The translations under genes and the position numbers were made by a program. A stretch of 52,469 nt of DNA from Isosphaera sp. (GTDB taxonomy: Bacteria > Planctomycetota > Planctomycetia > Gemmatales > Gemmataceae), in NCBI GenBank assembly GCA_013822345.1, contig PNKH01000050.1:1-52469 (forward strand). Direction: 5' to 3'. Of the stretch, positions 15,890-39,884 are shown one piece after another. The notes under the pieces were generated by a model. It saw nothing but the letters and a program-made list of their open reading frames with translations. It did no database searches and was not told the DNA's origin. Each line of letters starts with the position of its first letter. Position 1 is the stretch's first letter.

Positions 15890-17218
15890 ATGACCATCCT
15901 CGGAAAGCTCCTGACGTTCTTCTGCCTGGCCGCGGTCGGGGCGTTCGCGTACTTCGCCGTCCAGGACCGGGCCGGCCGGCAGACCATCACCGCCGCCGCC
16001 CTCCGCCACCGCCTCGTCGTCGACGGCCTCCCGCTCGGGGACTTCAAGGGCGCCCCGGCCGAGATGCCCAACGACCCCGACCCGGACGCCGAGGTCCTCT
16101 TCCCGATCGACCTGGGCACCGGCCGCCCGACCCCCACCGTCAGCCGCCAACTGCTGGAGACGTACTTCGGGCTCACCCCCGGCGGCACCCCGGTCAACGG
16201 CGGGGCCGGCAACCTCGGCGGCGGCGGGGCCGTCCCGAACCAGTTGGCCGAGGTCCGGCGGGTCCGGGCGAAGATCGACGAGGCGCTGAAGGCGGCCGAC
16301 GACAAGAAGGTGAGCCGGGTGCCGCTCCTGGAGGGGTGGCTGCTGTACCAGCCGACGACCTACGAGGAGCGGGAGGCGGTGCTCCGGCTGGTCAAGGCCG
16401 ACGACGCGAAGGGGCTGGAGGACAAGCTGAACGCCCGGTTCGCCGCCGTCCTCGACCCGCCCGCGGCGGCCGACCCGAAGACCCTCGCCGAGGCCGCCCC
16501 GGACCTCGAGCCGCTGTACGCCGACCTCGCCGCCGCCCGGAAGGACCTGGTCGACACGATGAGGGCCCCGAAGCGGACCCCGGCGGACGTCGAGGCGAAG
16601 CAGGCCGCGGTCGACGAGCGGCAGAAGGCGCTGGACGAGGCGGTGGCCCGGGTCCGCGGCCGGGCCGACCAGGTGGTCGCCTCCCGGGCCGCCCCGCTCG
16701 GGCCGGGGGAGCGGCAGGCCCGGCTCGCCCACCTGCTGGTCCACCTCGACCGGTCCGCCGACTGGCAGAAGCGGGTGCTCGCGGTCGTCGGGGTGCGGGA
16801 CTACGCCAGGGCGGTCGTCGGCCAGGCGAACCGGGTGAGGGAGATGGTCAAGCGGCCCGAGGAGGCGATCCCGGCCGACGAGGCCGGGTACTGGGCGTCC
16901 AAGGTCCGGCTCCAGGAGATCGCCTACGCCCGCACCACCCTGGCCAACAACCAGGCCGAGCTGCGGCGGAAGTGGGTCGAGCAGCTGCGGCGGGAGACCG
17001 ACCTCGTCGGCCAGCGGGAGACGCAGCTGAAGGCGATCCTGGCCCAGTACGACAAGGTCAAGGCCGAGGTCGACGACCTGCTGGCCAGGCAGGCGGTGGT
17101 CGAGGCGGCCCTGTTCGAGGTCCAGCGGGAGGTGGCCATCACCCTGGACGAGGTGTACCGGCTGTACGACGTGCTGGCCGCCCGGGAGCGGGACCTGCTC
17201 GCGGCCCCCCGGCCCTGA
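15890..17218 (+). CDS. Membrane-anchored coiled-coil protein, first gene of a four-gene operon
   Basis: 442 residues. The N-terminus M-T-I-L-G-K-L-L-T-F-F is followed by one transmembrane helix (about 7-24). The rest is charged and largely helical, with strong coiled-coil character at about 220-260 and about 350-435. A Gly-rich linker sits near 100-113. I recognise no enzymatic motif. The two genes after it begin with the same M-T-x-x-G-K-L/I-L-T/S anchor, so all three probably have the same topology. A structural or scaffold role at the membrane is inference. The ATG at 15890 was chosen because it starts the shared anchor motif; the open frame extends to 15803. Confidence 0.82.
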   Translation: MTILGKLLTFFCLAAVGAFAYFAVQDRAGRQTITAAALRHRLVVDGLPLGDFKGAPAEMPNDPDPDAEVLFPIDLGTGRPTPTVSRQLLETYFGLTPGGTPVNGGAGNLGGGGAVPNQLAEVRRVRAKIDEALKAADDKKVSRVPLLEGWLLYQPTTYEEREAVLRLVKADDAKGLEDKLNARFAAVLDPPAAADPKTLAEAAPDLEPLYADLAAARKDLVDTMRAPKRTPADVEAKQAAVDERQKALDEAVARVRGRADQVVASRAAPLGPGERQARLAHLLVHLDRSADWQKRVLAVVGVRDYARAVVGQANRVREMVKRPEEAIPADEAGYWASKVRLQEIAYARTTLANNQAELRRKWVEQLRRETDLVGQRETQLKAILAQYDKVKAEVDDLLARQAVVEAALFEVQREVAITLDEVYRLYDVLAARERDLLAAPRP

Positions 17219-17266
17219 CCGGGCCGGCCGCGGGCCCCCGGCGTCCTTCCCAACCGAGACACGGCG

Positions 17267-17971
17267 ATGACCCTGATCGGCAAGCTGCTGTCGCTCCTGA
17301 ACCTGCTCGTCGGCCTCGGGCTGCTGACCTGGGCGGTGACCACGTTCACCATCCGCCCCGGGTTCTTCGACCCGGTCCCGGAGGGCGTGACCCCGGGGCC
17401 GCGGCCGGCCGACAAGCTCGAGCCGGTCACCTTCGCCGGGGAGAAGCGGGAGGCGGAGCTGTTGTTCCGCCAGGCGAACCTCGCCAGCGGGGCGTGGGGC
17501 GACCGGTTCAAGCTCCTGACCGACCTGGAGAAGACGCGGGACGCCCGCCGGGCGAACTACCAGACCCGGCTGGAGTGGGCCCGGAAGGGGAAGGACAAGG
17601 GCGGGGTCGGGTTCTTCAACGAGAAGGACCCCGGGGTCATCCCGGCCGGCCCGGAGGAGCCGATCCTGGGGCCGGACAAGCAGCCGCTGAAGGGGGCCGA
17701 CGTGCTGGAGGACCAGCGGGCCGCCGACGTGGAGGCGCTGGCCAAGCTGGCCGCCCAGGTGCAGGCGGCCCGCCAGAAGTACGCCGAGCTGGGCCGGGAG
17801 ATCGTCCGGAACGACGACCGGCTGGTGCGGATGACGGCGATCCGGGACCAGGTCCAGGCGGAGGCGTTCTACCTCGCGGCGGTCGAGGTGACGGTGTACG
17901 AGACGCGGGAGACGGTGTTCCGGCGGAAGCGGCAGCTCGACCGCCGGCTGGCGGAGCTGGGCGGGCGGTAG
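17267..17971 (+). CDS. Membrane-anchored coiled-coil protein, second gene
   Basis: 234 residues. It begins M-T-L-I-G-K-L-L-S-L-L with one transmembrane helix (about 7-27), then a Pro-rich patch and two helical blocks (about 55-105 and 145-232). The last block is a long coiled coil ending R-R-K-R-Q-L-D-R-R-L-A-E-L. No known domain recognised. It lies 48 bp after the first gene on the same strand. The anchor motif is shared with the genes at 15890 and 18043, which argues for a common origin or a shared targeting rule. Confidence 0.82.
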   Translation: MTLIGKLLSLLNLLVGLGLLTWAVTTFTIRPGFFDPVPEGVTPGPRPADKLEPVTFAGEKREAELLFRQANLASGAWGDRFKLLTDLEKTRDARRANYQTRLEWARKGKDKGGVGFFNEKDPGVIPAGPEEPILGPDKQPLKGADVLEDQRAADVEALAKLAAQVQAARQKYAELGREIVRNDDRLVRMTAIRDQVQAEAFYLAAVEVTVYETRETVFRRKRQLDRRLAELGGR

Positions 17972-17982
17972 CGGGGGTCGGC

Positions 17983-18008
17983 GGGCCGGGAGCGTGAGCG
18001 ACCGGAGG
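17983..18008. repeat. Single half-copy of the GAGCCGG/GTGAGCGAC repeat
   Basis: This stretch reads GCCGGGAGCGTGAGCGACC and matches one arm of the palindromes at 24626-24690 and 43276-43344, without a second arm. It sits in the 71-bp gap between two genes of the coiled-coil operon. Confidence 0.8.
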
Positions 18009-18042
18009 GTCAGGGGGCGGCACACCACGCGGGGGGTCGGCG

Positions 18043-18933
18043 ATGACCTGGTTCGGCAAGATCCTCACCTTCGTGGTGATGGTGGCGGCGGTGGTGGCCA
18101 TGTACTTCATGGCCCAGGGGTTCGTCACCCGGACCGCCTGGCAGACCCGGGCCGACGACGCCACCGCGAGGCTGAAGCAGTCGGAGGACCTGCGGCGGCA
18201 GGACGAGCGGCGGCACCAGGCCGAGGTGGACGCCCTCCGCCGCGAGTTGACCATCGCCAACAAGGGGAAGACGGAACTGACCGAGACGGCCAAGGCCCTG
18301 GCGACCGCGTTCGACACCGTCCGGTTCAACTTCGAGAAGCTCCAGTCGGACTACGCCCGGAGTGACGTGACGGCGACCCAGCAGGCGACGAACCTGGCGG
18401 CGACGGTGGCCGAGCTGCAGACCCTGCAGAAGCGGGCGACCGACCTGGAGAACGCGTCGGTGGCGTCCGCCCAGGCGGTCGAGTTCGCCAAGCGGGAGGA
18501 GACGAAGGCGAAGAACGCGGCCAAGATCGCCCAGGCCCTGGCCGACGACAACGCCCGGAAGGTGGAGGAGCTGACCGACCGGGTGAACCAGCTGCGGGCC
18601 CAGGGCGGGGGCGGCCCGCCGTCCGCCCTGTCGGTGCTGAACCGCCCGCCGCCGCCGCTGCTGGCGAACACCCGCGGGGAGGTGACGCACGTGGACGGCG
18701 ACCTGCTGGTGGTGTCGATCGGGATCGACTCCGGGCTGGCGGTGAACACCGTCCTGGAGGTGTCCCGGGCGGACGGGACGTACCTCGGGACGGCCCGGGT
18801 GACCGACTCCCTGGGGCTGGAGCCGAAGCGGGCGGTCGTCACCTTCACCCCGGCCCGGAACGTCCCGCTCGACCGGCTCCCGGCCGCCGCCCTGCCGCGG
18901 AAGGGCGACCTGGTCCGCCCGGCCGCCCGGTAG
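18043..18933 (+). CDS. Membrane-anchored coiled-coil protein with C-terminal beta domain, third gene
   Basis: 296 residues. It begins M-T-W-F-G-K-I-L-T-F with a transmembrane helix (about 7-26). A long coiled coil at about 35-185 follows, then a Pro-rich hinge (about 190-208). The C-terminal 85 residues look beta-rich: G-E-V-T-H-V-D-G-D-L-L-V-V-S-I-G, then G-L-A-V-N-T-V-L-E-V-S-R and G-T-Y-L-G-T-A-R-V. That pattern resembles small beta-barrels in envelope proteins such as MreC; the comparison is inference. It is the only member of the operon with an obvious globular end and may be the interaction module. Confidence 0.83.
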   Translation: MTWFGKILTFVVMVAAVVAMYFMAQGFVTRTAWQTRADDATARLKQSEDLRRQDERRHQAEVDALRRELTIANKGKTELTETAKALATAFDTVRFNFEKLQSDYARSDVTATQQATNLAATVAELQTLQKRATDLENASVASAQAVEFAKREETKAKNAAKIAQALADDNARKVEELTDRVNQLRAQGGGGPPSALSVLNRPPPPLLANTRGEVTHVDGDLLVVSIGIDSGLAVNTVLEVSRADGTYLGTARVTDSLGLEPKRAVVTFTPARNVPLDRLPAAALPRKGDLVRPAAR

Positions 18934-18970
18934 TACTCGCACCCCCGGAACGCAGAGGGAGACTCCGCCG

Positions 18971-19261
18971 ATGGCGAAGACGAAAGAGAAGGCCCGGGGC
19001 GAGCGGGCGGCCGGCCCGCGGGCCCGGAACGACGCCTACGTGATGATGCTGTTCATCACCTTCGTCGCCCTGGTCGCGGCGACCGTGTTCGTCGTCCTCG
19101 ACCTCGAGGAGTACGGGTCGAAGACCCCGCCGAAGGAGGCGCTGCCGACCCCGGCCAGGCTCGGGGAGTCGCTCAAGGGCCTGCCGGACGACCCGAAGGT
19201 CGACCCGAAGGCGGACCCCAAGGCCGACCCGAAGGCCGACCCGAAGGACCCGCCGATGTGA
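18971..19261 (+). CDS. Small membrane protein with Asp-Pro-Lys repeats, fourth gene
   Basis: 96 residues. A basic N-terminus (K-T-K-E-K-A-R-G-E-R) precedes one transmembrane helix (about 28-45, V-M-M-L-F-I-T-F-V-A-L-V-A-A-T-V). The tail has tandem D-P-K-A-type repeats (about 75-92). By the positive-inside rule the N-terminus should be cytoplasmic and the acidic/Pro repeat tail outside. AGAGGGAGA lies upstream of the ATG, a good ribosome site. It is 37 bp from the third gene, so probably part of the same operon. No family recognised. Confidence 0.75.
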   Translation: MAKTKEKARGERAAGPRARNDAYVMMLFITFVALVAATVFVVLDLEEYGSKTPPKEALPTPARLGESLKGLPDDPKVDPKADPKADPKADPKDPPM

Positions 19262-19475: not shown

Positions 19476-20249
19476 ATGCGTCGGCCACCGGCGTGGGTCG
19501 TCGTTGTCGGCGTGGTCGCGGCGGGGGCGGCGAGCCCGGCCCCGGCCCGGGCGGCCGACGGGTTCTGGGTGACGGTGGCGGCGGGGGCGGCGGGGGCCGC
19601 CGACCCGGCCGACTACTCCGAGTTCTGGTTCGACTCCCCGCACGCCCCGCCGGTCGCCGTCACCCGGTTCACCGGGGGGACGACCGCCCAGGCGGTGACC
19701 GCCGGCGGGAGCACGTTCTTCACCTCCGGCGGCGTCCCGGTCCTCCTCCCGACGGCCGACGGGTACGCCACCATCTCGAACCCGGACGTGCCGGCCGGGG
19801 CCGGCGGGCTGCCGCGGTTCGCCGGCGGGACGCAGGCGTCGGGGGCCCCGCAGTCGGCCCCGGCCCCGGACGACTCGGCCCGGCTGGCGGTCGACCTCGC
19901 GGAGAAGGCGGCGGACGGGTCGCAGGCCCTGACGGTCGGGGCGGCCGACCCGACCGGGGCGGCCCTCGGGGAGGGGATGGTGACGGTCCCGGACGGCGGG
20001 TGGTGGGTGATCGGGCTGGGGCCGGCGAAGGGCGACGGGATGCCGCGGCCGGACCCGGGCCCGCTCCCGGTCGACATCGGCGGCGGGAACGGGTCGACCG
20101 ACGGCGGGGGGGTGATCGTGACCCCGGTCCCGGTCCCGGTCGCGTCCCCCGGCGGCGGGGCGGTGACCACCCCGGAGCCGGGGACGGCGGTCCTGCTCGG
20201 GCTGGGCGGGCTGGCGGCGGCCGGGTGGCGGCGGCTCCGCCGGCGGTGA
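19476..20249 (+). CDS. Secreted PEP-CTERM-type protein
   Basis: 257 residues. The start M-R-R-P-P-A-W and a hydrophobic run ending A-R-A-A-D give a Sec signal peptide (about 1-27). The body is Gly/Ala/Pro-rich with no enzymatic motif. The C-terminus is a full PEP-CTERM sorting signal: P-E-P-G, a hydrophobic helix (A-V-L-L-G-L-G-G-L-A-A-A-G) and the basic tail W-R-R-L-R-R-R. Such proteins are exported and processed by an exosortase, which is not in this window. A ribosome site AGGAAGAAGGG ends 6 bp before the ATG at 19476; the longer frame from 19263 begins in a palindrome and is unlikely. Function unknown; a surface or matrix protein is likely. Confidence 0.82.
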   Translation: MRRPPAWVVVVGVVAAGAASPAPARAADGFWVTVAAGAAGAADPADYSEFWFDSPHAPPVAVTRFTGGTTAQAVTAGGSTFFTSGGVPVLLPTADGYATISNPDVPAGAGGLPRFAGGTQASGAPQSAPAPDDSARLAVDLAEKAADGSQALTVGAADPTGAALGEGMVTVPDGGWWVIGLGPAKGDGMPRPDPGPLPVDIGGGNGSTDGGGVIVTPVPVPVASPGGGAVTTPEPGTAVLLGLGGLAAAGWRRLRRR

Positions 20250-39566: not shown

Positions 39567-39824
39567 ATGTCGGTGCGAGTCGGACTGTTCGGGCTGGTGG
39601 CGGCGGCGGGGGTCGCGGGGGCCGCGCCGATCGACCCGCCGCCCGAGGGGCGGGAGCCGAACCCGGTGGTCCGCGAGTTCTACGGGGCCGAGCCGGCGAC
39701 GTTCGCCTACGTGGCGCCGGCGGCCGCCCCGGCGGGCGGGTGGTGGTTCGGGGCGCTGTGGGACGGACTGGTCGAGCGGCTGACGGTCCCGCTCGGGACC
39801 GTGCCGATGGAGGTGTGGGACTGA
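39567..39824 (+). CDS. Small secreted protein of unknown function
   Basis: 85 residues from the ATG at 39567, preceded by GGAGGG. A Sec signal peptide (about 1-19, ending G-A-A-P) is followed by a Pro/Glu-rich segment, an Ala/Pro stretch and a short amphipathic end (G-G-W-W-F-G-A-L-W-D-G-L-V-E-R-L). No family recognised. It is the only plus-strand gene in a long minus-strand stretch and is followed by the palindrome at 39832. Possible shadow, but signal peptide and ribosome site favour a real gene. Confidence 0.6.
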   Translation: MSVRVGLFGLVAAAGVAGAAPIDPPPEGREPNPVVREFYGAEPATFAYVAPAAAPAGGWWFGALWDGLVERLTVPLGTVPMEVWD

Positions 39825-39831
39825 TGGGTCT

Positions 39832-39884
39832 CGCCGCTTGCGGCGTTGCGGGCGGCGGCTCCGCCCGCAACGCCGCAAGCGGCG
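39832..39884. repeat. Perfect inverted repeat, 24-bp arms
   Basis: Arms 39832-39855 and 39861-39884 pair exactly with a 5-nt loop. The arm shares its CGCCGCT-GCGGCGTTGCGGG sequence with the element at 19267-19313. It lies between two convergent stops, touching both (stop at 39824 and at 39887). Confidence 0.93.

Follow-up and report, generated by a model that had tools for sequence, protein, structure and literature searches.

A four-gene operon of membrane-anchored proteins in Gemmataceae whose core recurs in the mre operon of other planctomycetes

Introduction

The four-gene operon considered here, P1 to P4, lies in a 52,469-nucleotide stretch from Isosphaera sp. (Gemmataceae, order Gemmatales, phylum Planctomycetota), namely positions 1 to 52,469 of contig PNKH01000050.1 in assembly GCA_013822345.1, which we call the window, and three described systems come closest to it. 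MreC resembles P3, the third protein of the operon, in that both have an N-terminal membrane helix, a coiled coil and a terminal barrel, and in that the P3 gene is commonly found near mreB; MreC of E. coli has two six-strand barrels (PMC8804602, parts consulted), whereas P3 has one, of the FlgT_C kind. The C-terminal domain of FlgT (PF16538) and TsaP resemble the barrel of P3, which differs from both in sitting on a long membrane-anchored helix. In the spore-wall elongasome of Streptomyces, the Ser/Thr kinase PkaI acts on MreC and PBP2 (PMC4416010, parts consulted), setting a precedent for a kinase that acts on an elongasome scaffold; at our locus a kinase gene is kept beside P1–P4.

It is already known that Gemmataceae lack the MreB complex as well as most genes for wall synthesis (PMC8567305, parts consulted). 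An earlier note on this DNA, made from the sequence alone, had proposed that P1–P4 form an undescribed multi-protein system at the membrane. We found no description of the operon in the literature on planctomycete division and MreB that was searched, although an earlier notice in the comparative-genomics work of Jogler and colleagues (2012) is possible, and a coiled-coil gene before mreB goes unmentioned in the consulted parts of PMC10632474, PMC8567305, PMC5147048, PMC6952346, PMC8804602, PMC12283558 and PMC4416010. Here we show that P3 and P4 are ancient and frequently encoded in the planctomycete mre operon, and that P3 is present in nearly all sampled genomes of an order in which the rod genes were not found.

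Results

The four-gene operon was confirmed, with all open reading frames on the forward strand and intergenic gaps of 48, 71 and 37 bp (Table 1). Single-sequence searches of 59 relatives found P3 in 41 genomes, P4 in 44, P1 in 27 and P2 in 20, and all genomes with P1 or P2 belonged to the window's family (27 and 20 of its 37 genomes, respectively, and 0 of the 22 others). Judged by the coordinates of the matches, P1–P4 are consecutive and co-oriented in 17 of the 19 genomes of the genus; the exceptions are G015, whose operon is divided between contigs, and the 82% complete genome G007, which lacks P1 and P2 and gave only a barrel-type match. A class P3 profile built from 35 proteins detected P3 in 58 of the 59 relatives and in all 48 good genomes among them, with partial matches only in G007 and G029 and none in G020 (75% complete). 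Across the Planctomycetota, the phylum covered by our P3 searches, 246 of 294 genomes (135 of the 155 good ones) matched at E ≤ 1e-10, most of the listed matches running end to end; the figure of 246 is an undercount, because G069 and G086, which were scored as empty, carry P3 before mreB. The earlier note had named confinement of the gene set to this genome as a result that would speak against its proposal; since the set is found in many other genomes, that objection does not arise.

Sixty loci were picked by hand, mostly one per family (54 families), from about 150 listed places in the 246 matching genomes; for the comparison of P3 inside and outside the class, 53 of them gave P3, 55 proteins in total, with two each at L147 and L184. 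The class P3 profile aligned with that of the other families at 100% over 287 columns (E 3.7e-49), and the corresponding P4 profiles at 96.4% over 37 columns around the helix; on this profile evidence, P3 of the class and P3 of the other families are one family. The double copies stand in tandem in two families (L147 8969-10675 in G070 and L184 5804-7649 in G121) and may be a sign of a family that tends to duplicate in place. A P3-like barrel was also seen at the end of a 616-amino-acid protein that resembles a sigma factor by eye (L030 of G007, 22-1872), with a similar partial match inside a 694-amino-acid frame of G003 (C686), and the P3-type barrel thus seems to be reused in other proteins. 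Iterated profile searches from P1 and P2 were rejected, as the two families merged and drifted into unrelated coiled coils and SMC.

The 60 loci place P3 in a specific genomic setting. According to tblastn, 48 of the 60 loci, and 46 of the 57 outside the window's class, have the start of mreB no more than 1.5 kb downstream of P3 in the same orientation; four of the 12 loci without mreB end at a contig edge (L189, L191, L194 and L196). A frequent gene order in the other families is lnt-P3-P4-mreB-mreC-(mreD-like)-pbp2-rodA, in which the P4 position is held by a small gene encoding one helix, and lnt stands upstream of P3 at 35 of the 60 loci. The content of this operon was confirmed by Pfam at one locus, L165 (LNT_N 7e-15, MreB 2.2e-129, MreC 5e-10, transpeptidase 8.7e-34 and RodA 1.6e-71), while mreC and mreD at loci other than L165 and L147 were named by position or similarity. 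The mreD-like protein of L165 had no Pfam match at E ≤ 0.01, and MreD is reported in no proteome of the Planctomycetes-Verrucomicrobia-Chlamydiae group (PMC5147048, parts consulted). The safest reading is of a set of rod proteins, anchored in the inner membrane and probably periplasmic, whose core is both ancient and often part of the planctomycete mre operon.

In the window's order, P3 is present in 43 of 44 genomes (G000-G043), and the rod genes were not found. Matches of MreB grade (E ≤ 1e-49) occurred in 6 of the 59 relatives, MreC above the cut-off in 4, and RodA/FtsW and transpeptidase (each E ≤ 1e-8) in 5 each; all positives belong to other orders of the class, and each count is 0 of 44 in the window's order. 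Weaker PF06723 matches there were rejected as MreB, having E-values of 1e-10 to 1.5e-19 compared to 6e-50 to 2e-128 for the six matches of MreB grade; the open frames concerned measure about 380 to 1200 amino acids, many of the matches cover the profile only in part, and, taken as a group rather than scanned one by one, they appear Hsp70-like. An MreC match in G030 (E 3.1e-4) fell under the cut-off. The window's own locus likewise has no mre-pbp2-rodA string beside P3. At L120 of G048, P4-P3 adjoin an MreB-like gene, a transpeptidase gene and a gene that resembles mnmA by eye, an arrangement that looks like an intermediate in the loss, and in five genomes of the order (G033, G034, G035, G037 and G038) an mnmA-like gene directly adjoins P4-P3, which may be a scar of lost mre genes. 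We did not find the retention of part of the rod operon in an order without rod genes in the published literature.

P1, P2 and P3 share their N-terminus, as the earlier note had recognised. All three open with M-T-x-x-G-K-[LI]-L-[TS], and their profiles align pairwise over the first 34-39 residues only; profiles of the first 45 residues matched each other at 97.1, 98.3 and 98.2% over 35-38 columns. N-termini of MreC, MreD, PBP2 and Lnt from the same loci reached 0.2-2.5% against the P1/P2 anchor and 0.2-33.8% against that of P3, with PBP2 highest. Among the 1365 genes called in the window and the fetched loci (by a custom script that missed some starts), the strict motif occurred 10 times, always in the P1/P2/P3 family, a count that measures specificity and not frequency, given that the loci were fetched because of this family. 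Relaxing the motif to M-[TS]-x-x-G-[KR]-[LIV]-[LFV] gave 61 occurrences, 53 of these in the P1/P2/P3 alignments; of the other eight genes, one is unrelated (RuvC-like by eye). When a 40-residue anchor profile was searched against all six frames of the window's genome, exactly three matches were obtained at E ≤ 0.01, namely the starts of P1, P2 and P3; three anchors per genome were likewise found in 17 of the 19 genomes of the genus, with two in G015 and none in G007. The anchor of P1, P2 and P3 is hence one homologous module that, within the window's genome, is confined to this operon. In other orders and families of the class, one or two additional genes with a similar start adjoin P3 (L112, L114, L117, L118, L125, L129, L131 and L160); they are mostly shorter than P1 and may represent a parallel or older expansion.

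In the structural model of P3 (mean predicted local distance difference test score 86.7), residues 3-185 form one helix, which a linker of low prediction quality (187-202) joins to six strands, in line with the C-terminal beta-barrel module suggested earlier. With 160 helix residues past the membrane, the modelled rod would be about 24 nm long. The length of P3 varies by 3% over 90 proteins (274-321 residues), compared to 21% for 41 MreC proteins, and among 35 class P3 proteins the mean pairwise identity reaches 0.39 in the anchor and 0.38 in the barrel but only 0.17 in the coil; a coil of fixed length and free sequence fits what a spacer would need. Coiled coils had been proposed for all three anchored proteins; the long helix of P3 agrees with this, whereas the model of P1 is mixed: residues 3-45 form a helix, after which come two strands, a helical part and, at 302-437, a long C-terminal helix, and no structure in the PDB matched the P1 fold at E ≤ 0.001. 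The single hydrophobic helix described for P4 was confirmed, while its D-P-K repeats are not common to most of the 21 relatives inspected. Residue patterns counted in P4 (0 of 21 in the class, 9 of 36 in others) were two differing and poorly chosen ones, and the counts were not used.

None of the window's P1–P4 proteins reached a curated cut-off in Pfam and NCBIfam scans, and the window's P3 barrel alone had no Pfam match. The earlier statement that no domain can be recognised therefore holds for these proteins scanned alone, but not for the family, as 22 of 37 P3 barrels matched FlgT_C (PF16538) at E ≤ 0.1 (lowest E-value 3.7e-7), and each further Pfam family matched at most one of the 37. 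A profile of the whole protein retrieved myosins and other coiled coils from the PDB, and hence a barrel-only profile was used; its best match was TsaP (E 9.1e-5 for the whole sequence, 0.18 for the best single stretch), followed by a LysM protein and others, and flagellar basal-body proteins at E 0.7-0.9. FlgT_C and TsaP reside in the periplasm. In structure searches, the best Foldseek rows were barrels of F1-ATPase subunits (E 4.7e-4), and a second comparison gave F1-ATPase barrels at Z of about 10 and an LPHT-ring chain at rank 19; we discarded the likeness to F1-ATPase as a common arrangement that holds no functional hint. MreC was not among the best 50 rows of the fold search, which is not informative on kinship.

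The charges flanking the membrane helix lean towards a cytoplasmic N-terminus for P1, P2, P3 and class P4. For P3, the N-terminal flank is the more positive in 20 of 35 proteins, the C-terminal flank in 4, and the two are equal in 11. P1–P3 and class P4 are probably anchored in the inner membrane and face the periplasm.

The Ser/Thr kinase encoded divergently to P1 (Pkinase 9.5e-52) carries a tail that ends in one hydrophobic stretch. Orthologues stand in the same divergent arrangement at 15 of 17 P1 loci, the window included, the other 14 sharing 51-74% identity with it over the aligned part; three other matching kinases of the window show 33-36% identity and do not share the tail. This conserved kinase, the FlgT_C-like barrel and the link of P3-P4 to the mre/rod operon were absent from the earlier note.

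Table 1. Features of the operon and its surroundings (window positions)
Feature	Position	Strand	Remarks
P1	15890..17218	+	442 aa (amino acids): anchor, small middle part, long C-terminal helix
P2	17267..17971	+	234 aa: anchor and C-terminal part of conserved length
P3	18043..18933	+	296 aa: anchor, long single helix, barrel; ancient core
P4	18971..19261	+	96 aa: one hydrophobic helix, D-P-K tail
P1 anchor	15890..16009	+	anchor profile E 1.9e-14
P2 anchor	17267..17383	+	anchor profile E 5.2e-14
P3 anchor	18043..18159	+	anchor profile E 2.7e-16
P3 barrel, residues 212-293	18676..18921	+	model strands; FlgT_C in 22/37 family members
Ser/Thr kinase, one C-terminal hydrophobic helix	14053..15540	-	Pkinase match; divergent to P1
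Promoter-like site upstream of P1	15820..15848	+	consensus match only
Perfect 20-bp inverted repeat past P4	19268..19312		possible 3' end of operon

The inverted repeat past P4 is not among the predicted terminator-like sites of the window. A hairpin at 39833-39883, following the open reading frame 39567-39824, resembles it with one mismatch per arm, and the arm has five matches in the window where 0.14 would be expected; the two may perhaps be copies of a repeated 3'-end element. The product of 19512-20249, downstream of the operon, ends in what we take to be a PEP-type sorting-like tail, and similar genes come after the operon in several genomes of the genus.

Discussion

P3 shares with MreC a hydrophobic start followed by a long modelled helix, and at 48 of the 60 loci also a position beside mreB in the mre-pbp2-rodA string, and the P3 profile of the other families matched that of MreC from the same loci at 85% over 112 columns. 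Identity with MreC was nevertheless rejected, since P3 has no PF04085 match and a single barrel, and MreC is encoded separately inside the same operons; the likeness remains. As for FlgT, no flagellar or pilus genes were recognised beside P3 among the inspected neighbours (mostly by eye), and its motor setting is thus not seen here. Compared to Streptomyces, the kinase target at our locus is putative, and MreC and transpeptidase penicillin-binding proteins were not found in the window's order.

Since P3 and P4 lie in the rod operon at most other sampled planctomycete loci, they most likely began as phylum-specific accessories of the elongation machinery; and since the known shape machinery was lost from the window's order while this part of the operon was kept and enlarged, it may help to organise the envelope instead. 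We therefore favour, with our own judgement evenly balanced for and against, the explanation that P1–P4 form a periplasmic scaffold for envelope growth that is rooted in the inner membrane, was born in the rod operon and was kept after the loss of that operon. P3, with its anchor, rod and terminal barrel, and P4 would be the old core, beside which P1 and P2, with the same anchor, stand in the window's family. The like anchors would lie next to one another in the inner membrane, the helices would bundle into rods about 24 nm long, and the P3 barrel at the far end would grip a partner in the wall or outer membrane. Phosphorylation of the set by the neighbouring kinase might adjust its assembly, and in the absence of MreB the whole would contribute to the organisation of envelope growth and shape. 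The sequence relatives of the barrel, FlgT_C and TsaP, are parts of envelope machines and were counted in favour of this scaffold.

Several observations weigh against it. At eight of the 60 P3 loci (L146, L159, L170, L176, L182, L184, L185 and L195) there is room downstream and yet no mreB. Conversely, among 17 mreB loci from genomes that gave no P3 match, 13 show no P3 within about 1.5 kb upstream (two others, in G069 and G086, have P3 before mreB, and two could not be judged), so that P3-P4 are common but not obligatory in the mre operon of the phylum; seven of the 13 come from family f49 and comprise all seven of its genomes (Lnt was recognised by eye at L204, L207 and L208). A position in the rod operon does not, moreover, show that P3-P4 act in the rod complex. 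In P. limnophila, both mreB (Plim_2620) and mreC (Plim_2621) are reported as non-essential (PMC12283558, parts consulted), so that a gene of the rod operon there need not be vital; synteny with L160 would place P3 of this species at Plim_2619. The relation to MreC is weak for class P3 (39.8% over 20 columns), and the MreC core PF04085 matched 0 of 37 P3 barrels at E ≤ 0.1. Since the predicted template modelling score of P3 is 0.33, relative placement and assembly cannot be read from the model. The charge counts behind the predicted topology are weak, and P4 outside the class leans the opposite way, the C-terminal flank being the more positive in 20 of 36 proteins. Finally, no kinase orthologue stands beside P1 in G025 and G030 (2 of the 17 P1 loci).

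A passive spacer or tether, by which P3-P4 (with P1 and P2) fix the distance between the inner membrane and an outer layer without controlling growth, would agree with the near-constant length and freely varying coil of P3, with its presence where wall-synthesis genes were not found, and with the enlarged periplasm of planctomycetes (PMC11958385, parts consulted). We consider this unlikely, as linkage to mreB-mreC-pbp2-rodA and, in the window's family, the conserved kinase neighbour fit regulated growth better. P3-P4 could also have travelled with lnt and mre while serving lipoprotein maturation, sorting or another envelope task unrelated to shape, and the lnt gene found upstream of P3 at many loci and beside it in L116 (by eye), as well as the survival of P3 without rod genes, could be read in this way; however, P3 is next to mreB more often (48/60) than behind lnt (35/60), though contig ends blur both counts, and we regard this explanation as quite improbable.

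The FlgT_C matches in the barrel family, TsaP as the best sequence match in the PDB and the LPHT-ring chain in the structural comparison could instead point to an adaptor of a pilus, secretion or other envelope machine, with the barrel docked to a ring in the manner of FlgT or TsaP. The genes that recur beside the inspected P3 loci are mre, lnt or mnmA, however, and no pilus, flagellar or secretion genes recur (mostly judged by eye), which makes such an adaptor very doubtful. Least probable of all, in our estimate, is a membrane-bound coiled-coil layer on the cytoplasmic side, for example a cytoskeleton-like sheet: the N-terminus is short, basic residues follow the anchor closely in many members, and among 35 P3 proteins the charge difference is nil in 11 and reversed in 4, but the overall lean of the charges in P1, P2, P3 and class P4 and the periplasmic location of the barrel's known relatives both argue against it.

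A bolder form of the favoured scaffold, which we put forward tentatively and think rather unlikely to hold, is that P1–P4 and the kinase form a self-standing organiser of growth and budding that replaces MreB, RodA and PBP2 in planctomycetes without FtsZ, the rod complex and transpeptidase penicillin-binding proteins. If true, the scaffold would be a previously undescribed type of spatial organiser of bacterial growth and budding. P3 and P4 make a small set of targets, found beside mreB in most sampled members of the phylum and retained when the rod machinery is gone, and targeted deletions have been achieved in Planctopirus limnophila (PMC10632474, parts consulted).

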